50,350 nt of DNA. Origin: Mangrovicoccus sp. HB161399 (GTDB taxonomy: Bacteria; Pseudomonadota; Alphaproteobacteria; Rhodobacterales; Rhodobacteraceae). Below, one piece after another: positions 10,083 through 18,276 of this stretch. The notes beneath the pieces are model-generated. The model did no database searches and was not told the origin of the DNA. It was given only the letters and a program-made list of their open reading frames with translations. Position numbers and translations under genes: made by a program. The stretch lies in the NCBI RefSeq assembly GCF_013184745.1, contig NZ_JAATVU010000041.1:1-50350 (forward strand), given 5' to 3'. Numbering within the stretch: position 1 is the first letter of the stretch; each line of letters opens with the position of its first letter.

Positions 10083-12500
<2,418 letters not shown>

Positions 12501-12505
12501 GCGAA

Positions 12506-12559
12506 GGCCCGACCCGGCTGCCCTTCGGGGAAGAGTCCCGGCCGCAGCCGGATCGGGCC
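12506..12559. terminator. Long inverted repeat after copA, probable terminator
   Basis: Arms of 16 bases (12506-12521 and 12544-12559, GGCCCGACCCGGCTGC against its complement) match with one mismatch, separated by a 22-base loop that can itself fold (GGGGAAGAGTCCC). It starts six bases after the copA stop codon. There is no clean T-run, so it may act with Rho or protect the 3' end of the message. Confidence 0.5.
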
Positions 12560-12615
12560 CGCGCGCCTGCCCCGGCATGGCGCGCCGGGGGCGAGCGGGT
12601 CGCAGGCGGGGGTGC

Positions 12616-12644
12616 TTGACGGCGGCGGGCAGGCGCGCGAGCCT
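12616..12644 (+). promoter_or_regulatory. Possible sigma-70-type promoter for the deaminase-oxygenase operon
   Basis: CTTGACG gives a near-consensus -35 (TTGACG, 12616-12621), followed after 17 bases by GAGCCT (12639-12644), which keeps only the A2 and T6 of a -10 box, as often seen in Rhodobacterales. A small hairpin, GCAGGC/GCCTGC (12629-12646), overlaps the -10. The next start codon is at 12669. Confidence 0.35.
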
Positions 12645-12668
12645 GCGGCCGAGCCGGAGGAGTGTCCC

Positions 12669-13151
12669 ATGTCCCGCGATGCCGACCTTGCCCATCTGGG
12701 CCGAACCATGGAACTCGCCGATGAGTCGGCGGCGGAAGGCAACCATCCCTTCGGCGCGATCCTCGTGGGCGCCGACGGCACGGTGCTGGGCGAGGCGAAG
12801 AACACCCATTCCACCGATGGCGGTCCGGGCCATGCCGAAGCGAATCTCGCCCGCGATGCCGCCCGCCGCCACGGCATTGCCACGCTGCGCGGTGCCACGC
12901 TCTATACCTCGGTCGAGCCCTGCACGATGTGTGCCGGCACGATCTACTGGGCCGGGATCGGCGCGGTGGTCTACGGCATGACCGAGAAGCGGCTGGCCGA
13001 ACTGACCGGAGACGATCCGGAGAACCCGACCCAGGATTTGCCCTGCACTGCGGTCTTCGCCGCCGGGCGCCGGGCCATCGAGGTCCGCGGGCCGTTTCCC
13101 GAGCTGGAAGAGCGCATCGCGGCCCAGCATGCCGCCTTCTGGAAGGCGTGA
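12669..13151 (+). CDS. Nucleoside/nucleobase deaminase (CDA superfamily)
   Basis: A 160-residue zinc-dependent deaminase with the HAE motif (GGPGHAEANLARDAA) and the PCTMC metal site (SVEPCTMCAGTIYWAG). The C-terminal part (ENPTQDLPCTAVF, then AAFWKA) resembles GuaD-type guanine deaminases more than tRNA-specific TadA. Its likely reaction is hydrolytic removal of an amino group from a purine or similar ring. GGAGG at 12656-12660 supports the ATG at 12669. It is the first gene of a tight operon leading into a split Rieske oxygenase and a GST, suggesting a nitrogen-containing aromatic substrate; that link is inference. Confidence 0.82.
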   Translation: MSRDADLAHLGRTMELADESAAEGNHPFGAILVGADGTVLGEAKNTHSTDGGPGHAEANLARDAARRHGIATLRGATLYTSVEPCTMCAGTIYWAGIGAVVYGMTEKRLAELTGDDPENPTQDLPCTAVFAAGRRAIEVRGPFPELEERIAAQHAAFWKA

Positions 13152-13152
13152 G

Positions 13153-13395
13153 ATGGGACCGGTGCCGCTGCTGATAACCGGGGAGGTCGCCGATGACGGA
13201 TACCTCGACTGGATCCGCCACCGCGCGCGCATCCTCGATCTGCCTGCGGTCATCGCGCGGCTGTCGCCGCGGGAGATCCGCGTGACCGTCGAGGGGCCCG
13301 AGCCGCTGGTCGAGGCCATGGAAGCCGCCTGCAGCCTCGGCCCATCCAGCGTCCTCGTCGACCGGATCGAGCGGGAGGAGGCCGGCCGATGCTGA
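13153..13395 (+). CDS. Acylphosphatase-like protein without catalytic residues
   Basis: An 80-residue protein whose spacing follows the acylphosphatase fold: LLITGEVADDGYLDWIRHRA at the start, then a VTVEGPEPLVEAMEAAC helix, then VDRIEREE as the last strand. In active enzymes the first segment reads GxVQGVGFR; here the arginine position is leucine (GYL) and the conserved asparagine of the GWVxN turn is missing. Phosphate binding is therefore unlikely. The gene begins one base after the deaminase stop and ends 16 bases before the Rieske gene. It may be a small structural or binding partner; the fold call itself is moderate. Confidence 0.6.
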   Translation: MGPVPLLITGEVADDGYLDWIRHRARILDLPAVIARLSPREIRVTVEGPEPLVEAMEAACSLGPSSVLVDRIEREEAGRC

Positions 13396-13411
13396 TCCTC
13401 GGAGAGCTGTC

Positions 13412-14020
13412 ATGACCACCCGGCCCGTCGCCCTGTCGCGCGACCTGCCGCCCGGACGGGTGCAGCGGGCCCATGCCGGGGGACAGGATCTGGCGCTGTG
13501 GCGCTCCGCCTCGGGGCGGCCCGCGGCCTGGGCCAACCGCTGCCCGCATCGCGGCATGCGGCTGAGCCATGGCTTCGTCCGCGGCGAGACGCTCGCCTGC
13601 CTCTATCACGGCTGGCAGTACGGGGCCGAGGGCGGCTGCACGCACATGCCGGCCCATCCCGGGCTGGAGCCTCCGGCGACGATCCGCGCCACGGCCTTCG
13701 ACGTCGCCGAAGAGGGCGGCGTGATCTGGGTGGCGACGGAGGGCTACGCCCGCCCGCCGGAAATGCCCGAAGCGCTGCAGCCGCTGCGCAGCCTGACCTT
13801 CCGCTGCGACCTGGCCACGCTGGCCTGGGCCTGCGGGATGGCGCCCGACCGGCTGCTGTTCCTGCCCGACCATCCCAGCCTGGTGATCGCGCCGAACCCG
13901 GTCGGCGACGGCCTGACCGAGGCGCATGTGCTGACCGCGCCGCTTCCCGTGGAGGACCGGATCGCCGCCATGCACCGCACCGAGAGCCTGCGCCGCGCGG
14001 CAGAGGAGGCCTTCGCATGA
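13412..14020 (+). CDS. Rieske [2Fe-2S] protein, electron-transfer half of a split oxygenase
   Basis: A 202-residue protein whose first 110 residues are a Rieske domain with all four ligands: Cys44 and His46 in CPHRG, Cys63 and His66 in CLYHGW. The following 85 residues (from about LTFRCDLATLAWACG) are not recognised and lack the N-x2-D-x2-H-x4-H iron motif of oxygenase catalytic domains. It overlaps the next gene by ATGA (14017-14020). The pairing suggests it supplies electrons to that catalytic subunit, so the usual single alpha chain is divided over two genes. The alternative is a stand-alone ferredoxin with an unusual tail. Confidence 0.8.
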   Translation: MTTRPVALSRDLPPGRVQRAHAGGQDLALWRSASGRPAAWANRCPHRGMRLSHGFVRGETLACLYHGWQYGAEGGCTHMPAHPGLEPPATIRATAFDVAEEGGVIWVATEGYARPPEMPEALQPLRSLTFRCDLATLAWACGMAPDRLLFLPDHPSLVIAPNPVGDGLTEAHVLTAPLPVEDRIAAMHRTESLRRAAEEAFA

Positions 14021-14853
14021 GCCGCGACCACGCGCTCGACGACTGGTATCCGGTCGGCGACACGGTGCTGCCGCAGATCCGCGCCACGCGGCTGCTCGGC
14101 TCCGATCTGAGCGTCTCCTGGGACGGCGAGACCGCCGCGGTGACCGGGACGGACGGCACCGCCTGGCCGGTGCAGGTCCGCTATGACCACATCTGGACCT
14201 GCCTTGGCCCGTCGCCGCGGCCGCTCTTCGACATTCCGGAGGCGGAGCAGCCCGGACGCCGCCGCGTGCCCTGCGGGTCGGTGCGGGTGAAATGCTCGCC
14301 ATTGCGCGCGGTGGAGAACTTCCTCGACATCGCGCATTTTCCCTATGTCCATACCGGCATCCTCGGTGCCGAGCCGCATACCGAGGTCTTCCCCTACGAG
14401 GTCAAGATCCGCGAGGAGGTGGACGAGGTCTGGGCCACCAAGGTCAGCTTCCACCAGCCCAAGGCGGCGAAATCGGCCGGAACGGGCGCCGACATCCGCT
14501 ATGAATACCGGGTGCCGCATCCGATGGCGGCGGTGCTCTACAAGACCTGCCCGCCGCGCCCGGCGGAATGGGACGTGATCGCGATCTTCGTGCAGCCGGT
14601 GTCCGAGACCGAGTGCATCGCCTGGCCCTGGATGGCGCTCTACGACGACACGTCGAGCCAGGCCGAGCTGGTGCAGTTCCAGCAGGAGATCTTCCTGCAG
14701 GACCGATCCATCCTCGAGAACCAGATCCCGGTGCGGCTGCCGCTGGACCCGCGGATGGAGATTCCGACCCGCGCCGACCTGACCTCGGTCGCCTACCGGC
14801 GCTGGCTGAAACGCAGGGGCGCGGTCTACGGCGCGCTGTCGGAGGCGGAATGA
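14017..14853 (+). CDS. Rieske-type oxygenase catalytic subunit with eroded Rieske domain
   Basis: A 278-residue protein with the mononuclear iron motif ENFLDIAHFPYVH (Asn101, Asp104, His107, His112), as in VanA-like ring-hydroxylating or O-demethylating oxygenases. The later QDRSILENQ stretch matches the region of the third iron ligand in that family. Residues 10-64 (DWYPVGDT to YDHIWTCLG) look like the outer strands of a Rieske domain, but the segment that should hold the two CxH/CxxH ligand loops is missing. Electrons must come from another protein, most simply the overlapping upstream Rieske product. Substrate is unknown. Confidence 0.8.
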   Translation: MSRDHALDDWYPVGDTVLPQIRATRLLGSDLSVSWDGETAAVTGTDGTAWPVQVRYDHIWTCLGPSPRPLFDIPEAEQPGRRRVPCGSVRVKCSPLRAVENFLDIAHFPYVHTGILGAEPHTEVFPYEVKIREEVDEVWATKVSFHQPKAAKSAGTGADIRYEYRVPHPMAAVLYKTCPPRPAEWDVIAIFVQPVSETECIAWPWMALYDDTSSQAELVQFQQEIFLQDRSILENQIPVRLPLDPRMEIPTRADLTSVAYRRWLKRRGAVYGALSEAE

Positions 14854-15506
14854 GCTTCACTCTCTACAACCATGTGCTGGACGCGGATTGCTACAAGGTC
14901 CGGCTGATGGCGGCGCTGCTGGGCGTGAAGCCGGATCTGGCGGCGGTCGACATCCACCCGCGGCAGGAGAACCTGTCCGACGCCTTCCTCGCGCTCAACC
15001 CTGCCGGGACGCTGCCGGTCGCGGTGGCGGGCGACCTGGTGCTGCGCGACGCGCCGTCGATCCTCGTGTGGCTGGCGCTGACCGCCGACGTGACCGAGCG
15101 CTGGCATCCGCGCGATCCCGGGCCGATGGCCGGGCTCCAGCAATGGCTGGGCTTTTCCCACAGGCTGGCCGCAACCGCCGGGGCGGCCCGGCTGGAGGCG
15201 ATGCTGGGCTGGCCCGCGCCCGAGGCCGCCGCCGCCGAGGCGGAGGATTGCCTGCGGCAGCTGGAGCTGCACCTGGCGCTCGGCCATCTGGAGGGACGCG
15301 ACTGGCTGGTCGGGCGCCACCCGACGGTGGCCGACATCGCCTGTTTCGCCGATGTCGCGCTGTCGCCCGATGCAGGGCTGCTGCATGACGGCCTTCCCTT
15401 CGTCCGGGGCTGGCTCTGGCGCATCCGCGCGCTGCCCGATTTCCTGCCGATGCCGGGGATCGGGCCGCTGCACGAGCTTGCCGATCCGGCGACCGGACGG
15501 CGCTGA
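14850..15506 (+). CDS. Glutathione S-transferase family protein
   Basis: A 218-residue GST-like protein. The N-terminal thioredoxin-like domain begins FTLYNHVLDADCYKVRLMAALLG, has the cis-proline segment NPAGTLPVAVAGDLVLRDAPSILVWL, and is followed by a helical domain with GRHPTVADIACFADVALSPD, the typical GST helix-6 motif. A cysteine sits at the catalytic position (DADCYKVR), as in Cys-type bacterial GSTs that reduce or isomerise ring products rather than detoxify electrophiles. It overlaps the oxygenase gene by ATGA (14850-14853), so it is likely to act on the oxygenase product. Confidence 0.85.
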   Translation: MSFTLYNHVLDADCYKVRLMAALLGVKPDLAAVDIHPRQENLSDAFLALNPAGTLPVAVAGDLVLRDAPSILVWLALTADVTERWHPRDPGPMAGLQQWLGFSHRLAATAGAARLEAMLGWPAPEAAAAEAEDCLRQLELHLALGHLEGRDWLVGRHPTVADIACFADVALSPDAGLLHDGLPFVRGWLWRIRALPDFLPMPGIGPLHELADPATGRR

Positions 15507-15536
15507 CCCCGGCCCATTGGCCGCAGGGGGAGCCGC

Positions 15537-15564
15537 TTGAGCCGCCGCATCGCCGCGCTATTGT
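15537..15564 (+). promoter_or_regulatory. Probable pgm promoter
   Basis: TTGAGC (15537-15542) and TATTGT (15559-15564) are 16 bases apart and resemble the housekeeping -35/-10 consensus. They lie 68 bases before the pgm start codon, after the end of the GST gene. Confidence 0.45.
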
Positions 15565-15613
15565 TTCGCCGAACCGGCCGGCAGGGCCGCGCGTTCGTGA
15601 GTGCGACGAGTAG

Positions 15614-17263
<1,650 letters not shown>

Positions 17264-17285: not shown

Positions 17286-17315
17286 AAGCGGGCCCTGGGG
17301 GCCCGCTTCTGTTTT
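17286..17315 (+). terminator. Rho-independent terminator after pgm
   Basis: A perfect 10-base stem, AAGCGGGCCC (17286-17295) with GGGCCCGCTT (17299-17308), has a three-base loop and is followed by TCTGTTTT. It sits 23 bases after the pgm stop codon. Confidence 0.85.
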
Positions 17316-17400
17316 GCGCGGCGGCGCGACGGAACCGGCGGGGACGGACGTTTGTTGTCAAACGGGTTGGGGGACCCAGAAAGACGACAAGGAAGACCCG

Positions 17401-18276
17401 ATGTCCGATACACACGCCCATGACCACGGGCTTGCCCATGACCTGCCGAAGATGCTCGGCCGCCGCCGCCTGCTGGCGCTGATCGGCGGCCTCGGGCTGG
17501 GAACCGTTCCGGCGCTGCGCGCCTCCGCCGCCTGCGTTGCGCTGCCCTGGGAGACCGCCGGTCCCTATCCGGCGGACGGCAGCAACTCGAAATCCGGCCA
17601 GGTGGTCAATGCGCTGGCGCAGGAAGGTATCCTGCGCGAAGACCTGCGTCCGTCCTTCGGCGGTTTCGGCGGCGAGGCCGAGGGCGTCCCGCTGGAGCTG
17701 GAGCTGACGCTGCTGGCCGCAGACGGCTGCACCCCGCTGGCGGGCCATGCCGTCTATGTCTGGCATTGCAACGCGACCGGGCTCTATTCGCTCTATGACG
17801 AGACCGGGGCCAACTGGCTGCGCGGGCTAGGCGTCGCCGACGAAGCCGGCAAGGTGCGGTTCACGACCATCGTGCCCGGCTGCTATGACGGGCGCTGGCC
17901 GCATATCCATTTCGAGGTCTTCGAGACGGCAGGGGCCGCGGTCTCGGGCGAGGCCTCGCTGCTGACCGCCCAGATCGCGGTCCCGGAAACGGAGGCGGCG
18001 GCGGTCTACGGCGATGACGCGCGCTATTCCAACGGCACGCGCAACCTGGGCCGGATCACGATTCCCTCGGACAATGTCTTCGGAGACAATTCGGAGGCCG
18101 AGATCGCCCAGCAGACCCTGGCGATGGCCGGCAGCCCGGCGGAGGGCTACTCGGGCACGGTGGCGATCCCGGTGGATTTCGATGCGGACCGCAGCAGCGC
18201 CATGCCCGCGCCGCCGCCCGGCGGCTTCGGCGGGGACATGCCGCCGCCTCAGGGGGCGCGGCCGCAGGCGGACTGA
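17401..18276 (+). CDS. Tat-exported intradiol ring-cleavage dioxygenase-like protein
   Basis: A 291-residue protein of the protocatechuate 3,4-dioxygenase fold. Iron ligands of the family are visible: a Tyr in ATGLYSLYDE, then Tyr and two His in PGCYDGRWPHIHFEVF. The N-terminus is histidine-rich and then reads LGRRRLLALIGGLGLGTVPALRASA, a twin-arginine-type signal, so the enzyme is probably periplasmic. The C-terminus is proline- and glycine-rich (PAPPPGGFGGDMPPP). Exported members of this family are common but mostly lack known substrates. It stands alone between two terminators, convergent with the ArsR/SRPBCC pair. Confidence 0.82.
   Translation: MSDTHAHDHGLAHDLPKMLGRRRLLALIGGLGLGTVPALRASAACVALPWETAGPYPADGSNSKSGQVVNALAQEGILREDLRPSFGGFGGEAEGVPLELELTLLAADGCTPLAGHAVYVWHCNATGLYSLYDETGANWLRGLGVADEAGKVRFTTIVPGCYDGRWPHIHFEVFETAGAAVSGEASLLTAQIAVPETEAAAVYGDDARYSNGTRNLGRITIPSDNVFGDNSEAEIAQQTLAMAGSPAEGYSGTVAIPVDFDADRSSAMPAPPPGGFGGDMPPPQGARPQAD

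Follow-up and report, generated by a model that had tools for sequence, protein, structure and literature searches.

A split Rieske oxygenase operon of the NdmCDE kind in Mangrovicoccus, with a candidate role in the breakdown of N-methylated guanines

The stretch of DNA analyzed here (the window) comprises positions 1 to 50,350 of contig NZ_JAATVU010000041.1 of Mangrovicoccus sp. HB161399, a member of the Rhodobacteraceae. Positions 12669 to 15506 of its plus strand contain five confirmed open reading frames, all head to tail, which we call DEAM, ACYP, RSK, CAT, and GST (Table 1). The intergenic distances are, in order, 1, 16, -4, and -4 bases, bearing out the tight packing noted in the original prediction, which had been made from the letters of the window and had placed the five genes in one operon. 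DEAM matches PF00383 (2.3e-19), RSK matches PF00355 (2.9e-21), CAT matches VanA_C (9.3e-23), and GST matches the N- and C-terminal glutathione transferase domains; the match of ACYP to PF00708 is 9.3e-5, at 23.1 bits against a cutoff of 22.5.

Table 1. Genes of the five-gene array (positions in the window)
Name	Coordinates	Strand	Description
DEAM	12669..13151	+	zinc-dependent deaminase, cytidine/guanine-deaminase fold; HAE at residues 55-57, PCxxC at 84-88
ACYP	13153..13395	+	acylphosphatase fold lacking the catalytic Arg and Asn; probably a structural subunit (putative role)
RSK	13412..14020	+	free-standing Rieske [2Fe-2S] subunit; C-terminal tail interpreted as what is left of an oxygenase catalytic domain
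CAT	14017..14853	+	Rieske oxygenase catalytic subunit; mononuclear iron site present, Rieske cluster segment missing
GST	14850..15506	+	glutathione transferase-like partner, NdmE-like (putative role)

The anatomy of CAT is split, with an iron site and no Rieske cluster. In hhalign, residues 9 to 275 of CAT aligned to full oxygenases with the [2Fe-2S] segment missing (E value of 8.6e-38). The Asp, His, and His of its motif DIAHFPYVH are present in 51 of 51 aligned rows, and a later Asp is present in 50, the remaining row being gapped. RSK has 202 amino acids and no reductase part, and its Rieske ligands (C, H, C, and H) are kept in all 36 free RSK rows. The nearest solved relatives of CAT are the whole Rieske oxygenases SxtDIOX and SxtT, followed by NdmB and NdmA, and the first two solved relatives of RSK are also SxtDIOX and SxtT. 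An AlphaFold2 model of RSK (pLDDT, 89; pTM, 0.86) gave query TM-scores of up to 0.79 among the matches listed against whole SxtT/GxtA chains, in an output that carries no residue ranges. Because the Rieske domain makes up only about 112 of the 202 residues (0.55), the tail of RSK is, going by this model, best explained as a shrunken oxygenase catalytic domain. We infer that RSK and CAT each descend from a whole oxygenase, each having lost the metal site that the other kept. A quick tree built without loci L108 and L090 placed HpxD and two whole oxygenases outside a group of 49 split catalytic subunits.

The other two partners of the oxygenase appear to be accessory. ACYP has 80 residues and aligns weakly to solved acylphosphatases (E value of 0.12). 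At the positions that we take to be those of the catalytic Arg and Asn of acylphosphatase, the window protein has Leu and Arg; the original prediction had called it acylphosphatase-like. The two residues occur together in 0 of 28 rows (L034 has only the Arg and L073 only the Asn), and a working acylphosphatase was rejected for this reason. To judge from these positions, ACYP is probably noncatalytic. GST can be aligned with its counterparts in NdmCDE-like clusters, and its active-site Cys is present in 39 of 42 rows, with Gly or Ser in the other 3. L102 was excluded from both alignments. NdmE, the GST of NdmCDE, is needed in that system and has been proposed to be structural (PMC4408171, PMC13237722). 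A catalytic GST step was set aside because the Cys is not invariant and because of the NdmE precedent, and the glutathione-dependent processing of the product put forward in the original prediction is not supported. GST and ACYP would play a structural role in the complex.

Relatives of CAT were found at E ≤ 1e-30 in 30 of 394 genomes of the family and in 8 of 385 genomes of the class, the window genome being in both counts. The 46 mapped loci are these survey matches minus G493, where the match is cut by a contig end, plus two same-genus loci, three other contig loci, and five chosen plasmid regions; L024, L100, and L023 were dropped as duplicates of the L107, L026, and L109 loci, respectively, and L030, L032, and L035 lie outside the mapped set. 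ACYP, a free RSK, CAT, and GST occur together as a core at 26 of the 46 loci and are tightly packed at 24, and the recurrence of the four genes that follow the deaminase is more than chance. At seven loci, the window not among them, the Rieske domain is fused to a reductase, and ACYP was detected at none of the seven. The remaining 13 loci are neither core nor fused: eight have RSK near CAT with no reductase or ACYP detected, two (L034 and L092) have the parts further apart, and three are incomplete. The same-genus locus L108 has RSK and GST only in part, with no DEAM or ACYP by tblastn. At two loci, L033:11932-13773 and L096:8612-10393, split catalytic subunits occur as a tandem pair together with a single Rieske-reductase fusion and a single GST, which suggests two substrates or a mixed complex.

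The deaminase position is more variable than the core. DEAM lies within 3 kb at 6 loci, 5 of them with the core, and an amidohydrolase of the NdmH type does so at 14, 13 of them with the core; the two were never both present within 3 kb at any mapped locus. A guanine-deaminase-like gene lies within 8 kb at seven loci; two of the seven (L072 and L034) were scored against a curated model, and both passed, and a further such gene at L025, cut by the locus end, is below the counting threshold. One or another of these three deaminase-type genes is in range at 21 of the 26 core loci. Co-conservation, for which the original prediction had proposed a search covering all five genes, stands for the four-gene core; the full set is present at 5 of the 46 loci, and at 14 an enzyme with the NdmH active-site signature takes the place of the deaminase. 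The conserved unit is the four-gene core, not the five-gene set.

Judged by sequence, the operon belongs to the NdmCDE kind as a variant form, in which the Rieske subunit is free and a pseudo-acylphosphatase is present. NdmCDE of Pseudomonas putida CBB5 is the N7-demethylase of 7-methylxanthine in caffeine degradation (PMC4408171, PMC13237722). Homologous ndmCDE clusters have been described in 18 further organisms (PMC4408171), so a split oxygenase with a GST is a kind already in print, and the statement in the original prediction that no characterized pathway comes close overlooks it. The two systems share a catalytic subunit without a Rieske cluster, a Rieske domain on a separate chain, and a GST-like partner; CAT corresponds to NdmC, RSK to the Rieske part of NdmD, and GST to NdmE. 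CAT is 44.7 to 47.4% identical to the catalytic subunits of the NdmCDE-like clusters examined (Pseudomonas and S. meliloti). The window system differs from NdmCDE in that its Rieske protein stands free of any reductase, a pseudo-acylphosphatase and a deaminase are added, and the array contains no reductase. To our knowledge, two-part iron oxygenases of this kind have so far been characterized only in caffeine-degrading bacteria.

The sister operons with an NdmH-type enzyme connect this oxygenase family with methylated guanines. poNdmH, the progenitor of AtzB, is an N2,N2-dimethylguanine hydrolase for which 13 active-site residues have been named and whose product is xanthine directly (PMC13054789). 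The amidohydrolase of Rhizobium and of many related loci has all 13 of these residues at identical numbering (CQNN and nine others), one row (L075) being cut before the last of them. In Rhizobium johnstonii 3841, CAT is encoded on pRL10 at 344294-345139. In contrast, 20 rows resembling 8-oxoguanine deaminase share Cys213 and seven more of these residues and lack Trp85, Asn165, Gln214, Asn217, and Pro300. The window deaminase differs from NdmH in being a zinc deaminase of another fold, and the window genome (G000) gave 0 NdmH matches at E ≤ 1e-80. At that threshold, 44 of the 394 family genomes match, 12 of them at 67 to 80% identity and the rest at 42% or less. All 12 close matches fall among the 30 genomes with CAT (P = 3.5e-15, assuming an independence that related genomes do not fully meet). 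NdmH and CAT are adjacent in 11 of the 12; in G374, the CAT match runs up to the end of one contig, and NdmH is found close to the start of a different one. Among 359 further genomes of the phylum, searched at E ≤ 1e-120, four more have NdmH, all with CAT and GST adjacent, so that overall 16 of 16 genomes with close NdmH carry the oxygenase and 15 of 16 carry it adjacent. Four controls resembling 8-oxoguanine deaminase have neither CAT nor GST within their flanks of ~1.5 kb. In the quick tree, the core loci with DEAM group beside two NdmH loci. The words “Rieske,” “transporter,” and “demethyl” gave no match in a search of PMC13054789, where genomic context appears only as planned follow-up. 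Among the papers listed in literature searches on methylguanine catabolism and on Rieske proteins with deaminases, judged by title and the start of the abstract, this paper is the only one that bears on a pathway of this sort, caffeine reviews apart.

Transport and downstream genes also point to purines. An AtzT-like transport protein is encoded within 8 kb at 27 of the 46 loci, and among solved structures the linked protein is closest to AtzT and a Brucella protein. AtzT was crystallized with guanine, which it binds at ~110 nM (PMC6834077). Its residues Ser97, Phe98, Glu165, and Trp194 are kept in 13 of 13 NdmH-linked proteins and in two of three DEAM-linked ones; the linked proteins differ from AtzT in that Tyr45 is replaced by Trp and in residues 218 and 220. 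Residue 218, the neighbor of the guanine amine in the AtzT structure, is Ala in all 13 NdmH-linked proteins and in none of the 14 others; it is Tyr at L025 and L073, which have DEAM, and at L072, which has only guanine deaminase. Taken as a sequence pattern, Ala218 fits a dimethylated N2 ligand in the NdmH group. Genes for xanthine dehydrogenase share the strand at two loci, directly 5′ of ACYP at L079 (large subunit and XdhC over the cutoff, small subunit 2 bits under) and 5′ of the transporter at L094 (large subunit over the cutoff); related genes at L091 and L092 are under the cutoff, and L091 also has a xanthine riboswitch. Guanine-deaminase-like amidohydrolases and, in rare cases, tadA-type deaminases are reported among the genes close to this riboswitch (PMC7373994). 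The window genome has a xanthine dehydrogenase over the cutoff, on the same contig (C57) as an AtzT-like gene 41% identical to that of L025; this gene is not beside the window operon. The fullest form of the pathway seen is the collinear 12-gene array L079:1707-14998, with the small and large subunits of xanthine dehydrogenase, XdhC, ACYP, RSK, CAT, GST, NdmH, and a four-gene AtzT-like ABC transporter. At L028:13504-16007, the NdmH-type and AtzT-like genes adjoin.

DEAM has the motifs HAE and PCxxC, which we take to be the zinc motifs of the guanine/cytidine-deaminase fold. Its nearest solved chains are of the CMP/dCMP-deaminase type (1e-19), followed by guanine deaminase 1wkq (3e-15). A plain guanine deaminase was set aside because a canonical guanine deaminase over the curated cutoff is encoded elsewhere in the host genome and because L025, L073, and L105 carry both DEAM and a guanine-deaminase-like gene. 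The in-frame stops that several DEAM relatives seem to have were discounted as a probable end-of-gene effect, the frame being open to at least residue 158 of 160. Leaving G000 and G192 aside, 25 genomes have DEAM relatives; the gene context was examined in 10 of them, and a xanthine riboswitch lies within ~5 kb at 3 of these 10 loci (L174, L175, and L177). These three share a common gene set with the DEAM relative near the riboswitch, that of L174 comprising an NMT1-type binding protein, an ABC ATPase, an amidohydrolase, and two 2-oxoglutarate oxygenases, and are possibly a Rieske-free counterpart of the pathway.

On this evidence, the operon very likely belongs to a purine pathway, in line with the shared pathway and the nitrogen-containing, purine-like ring originally proposed. 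Within that frame, oxidative N-demethylation of a methylated guanine or xanthine seems the better bet, and we hold it reasonably likely that the operon serves the breakdown of N-methylated guanines, by deamination and oxidative N-demethylation to xanthine; the earlier pairing of a deaminase with a demethylating oxygenase has become the likeliest chemistry. RSK, with its [2Fe-2S] cluster, and CAT, with its mononuclear iron, would form one functional Rieske oxygenase, held together by GST and the pseudo-acylphosphatase and fed with electrons by a cellular reductase encoded outside the array. The oxygenase would strip a ring N-methyl group as formaldehyde, which by analogy with NdmC would be the N7-methyl of 7-methylxanthine or 7-methylguanine; N7 itself has perhaps a little less than an even chance. 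DEAM would take off the 2-amino group, for example, converting 7-methylguanine to 7-methylxanthine, and the xanthine produced would pass to the chromosomal xanthine dehydrogenase. In the sister operons, NdmH would stand in DEAM's place and remove a dimethylamino group instead. The reaction, the methyl position, and the order of steps are all predicted rather than observed.

Several observations tell against this assignment. The array has no visible reductase or transporter gene. The kinship of CAT with NdmC is drawn from related clusters rather than from the CBB5 sequence itself, and in the quick tree the NdmC-like subunits and the window subunit occupy different parts of the split clade. The N7 assignment is drawn solely from NdmC, and because the relatives NdmA, HpxD, and SxtT carry out different chemistries, the methyl position is not fixed. 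As to the split, profile comparison found no link between the RSK tail and full oxygenases (probability of 0.1%) and a weak one between the tail and CAT (32.5%, 27 columns), and the structure model of CAT is poor (pLDDT, 53). The residue-218 pattern may reflect shared descent, at least in part, and the DEAM-linked binding protein of L105 departs from the others (Asp165 and Met218). DEAM relatives occur in 27 of the 394 genomes, 8 of which have CAT, adjacent in only 2 (G000 and G192). L107, a near relative, has the core without DEAM at the locus and a 63% identical DEAM on another contig; for 5 of the 26 core loci, no gene of the three deaminase types was within range; and the riboswitches near DEAM relatives precede genes of the 2-oxoglutarate-oxygenase type, not DEAM itself.

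The deaminase figures bear on another explanation, that the genes are merely colocated, with only the oxygenase module being a unit and DEAM a passenger. The presence of all five genes at just 5 of 46 loci, the arrangement of L107, and the position of most DEAM relatives away from CAT would all suit it, but DEAM stands 5′ of the core at 5 loci in at least three genera, and a deaminase-type gene is in range at most core loci, so we think it quite unlikely. An oxygenase acting on the exocyclic N2-methyl groups of N2-methylguanines, with the deaminase then acting on guanine, would draw on the NdmH substrate, N2,N2-dimethylguanine, and on the NdmH signature in the neighbor at 14 loci. Yet NdmH removes the dimethylamino group in one step, so that oxygenase and NdmH would duplicate the job there, and a guanine deaminase above the curated cutoff is already present in the host; this scheme is very unlikely.

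Hydroxylation at C8 of the purine ring (guanine to 8-oxoguanine, deaminated to urate) would instead make the operon a molybdenum-free route like that of HpxD. HpxD is a homologous Rieske oxygenase acting on purines, annotated as a molybdenum-independent xanthine hydroxylase and 31 to 34% identical to CAT over the catalytic part; hpxDE are tied to purine oxidation (PMC7373994), C8 and the N7-methyl are neighbors on the purine ring, and at L034 and L092 an 8-oxoguanine-deaminase-like gene accompanies CAT, that of L034 being over the curated cutoff (605.7 versus 532). However, HpxD is a single undivided chain that falls outside the split clade, and the region shown has an adjoining reductase gene but neither a GST nor a pseudo-acylphosphatase gene; NdmH gives xanthine directly (PMC13054789), and a urate-forming oxygenase would make the clustered same-strand xanthine dehydrogenase genes of L079 and L094 redundant. 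It was on account of the latter that 8-oxoguanine chemistry was set aside as first choice, and we regard the C8 route as unlikely. A pterin or other fused aminoheterocycle in place of a purine base is a highly improbable substrate. SxtDIOX and SxtT, to which CAT is closest among solved structures, have saxitoxin-type compounds as substrates, and some 8-oxoguanine-deaminase-like amidohydrolases act on pterins, which counts in its favor, but the NdmH signature, the AtzT-like protein, and the associations with xanthine dehydrogenase and the xanthine riboswitch all lead to purines. The L034 locus itself, L034:3805-15556 on a plasmid of Rhizobium sp. BG6, carries no listed annotation; it has divergent GST-RSK-ACYP genes with a transporter, CAT, and a further amidohydrolase, and encodes both an 8-oxoguanine deaminase and a guanine deaminase over the cutoff.

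The upstream gene, copper-ATPase-like, ends 168 bases before the array, and the downstream gene, phosphoglucomutase-like, begins 125 bases after it, both named by eye without a search. A possible promoter before the first gene, as originally suggested, was not recovered, a sigma-70 consensus scan of positions 12450 to 15700 giving 0 sites against a chance expectation of 0.1, and the same region showed nothing resembling a terminator. Riboswitch control of the window operon was set aside, the single Rfam match being below threshold; a scan of 15 loci gave tRNAs only. Farther downstream (17314 to 18276), an open reading frame outside this finding looks by eye like a secreted intradiol dioxygenase.

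N2,N2,7-Trimethylguanine and N2,N2-dimethylguanine are bases of tRNA and eukaryotic RNA caps, and bacterial breakdown of RNA-derived methylated guanines is, as far as we know, largely unassigned. As a tentative extension of the N-demethylation pathway favored here, these operons might together form an undescribed route for the methylated guanine bases of RNA, the DEAM form handling 7-methylguanine and the NdmH form handling N2,N2,7-trimethylguanine or N2,N2-dimethylguanine, both leading to xanthine, with an oxygenase that arose by duplication of a whole chain and loss of opposite metal sites, a noncatalytic GST and acylphosphatase, and atzB and atzT recruited from such an operon. Since AtzB and AtzT belong to the NdmH and AtzT-like families, both may come from an operon of this type, which would be a possible natural source for two atrazine degradation genes. 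The proposal joins NdmH, an AtzT-like purine transporter, and this oxygenase family in one testable pathway and predicts how a Rieske oxygenase may divide into complementary halves.

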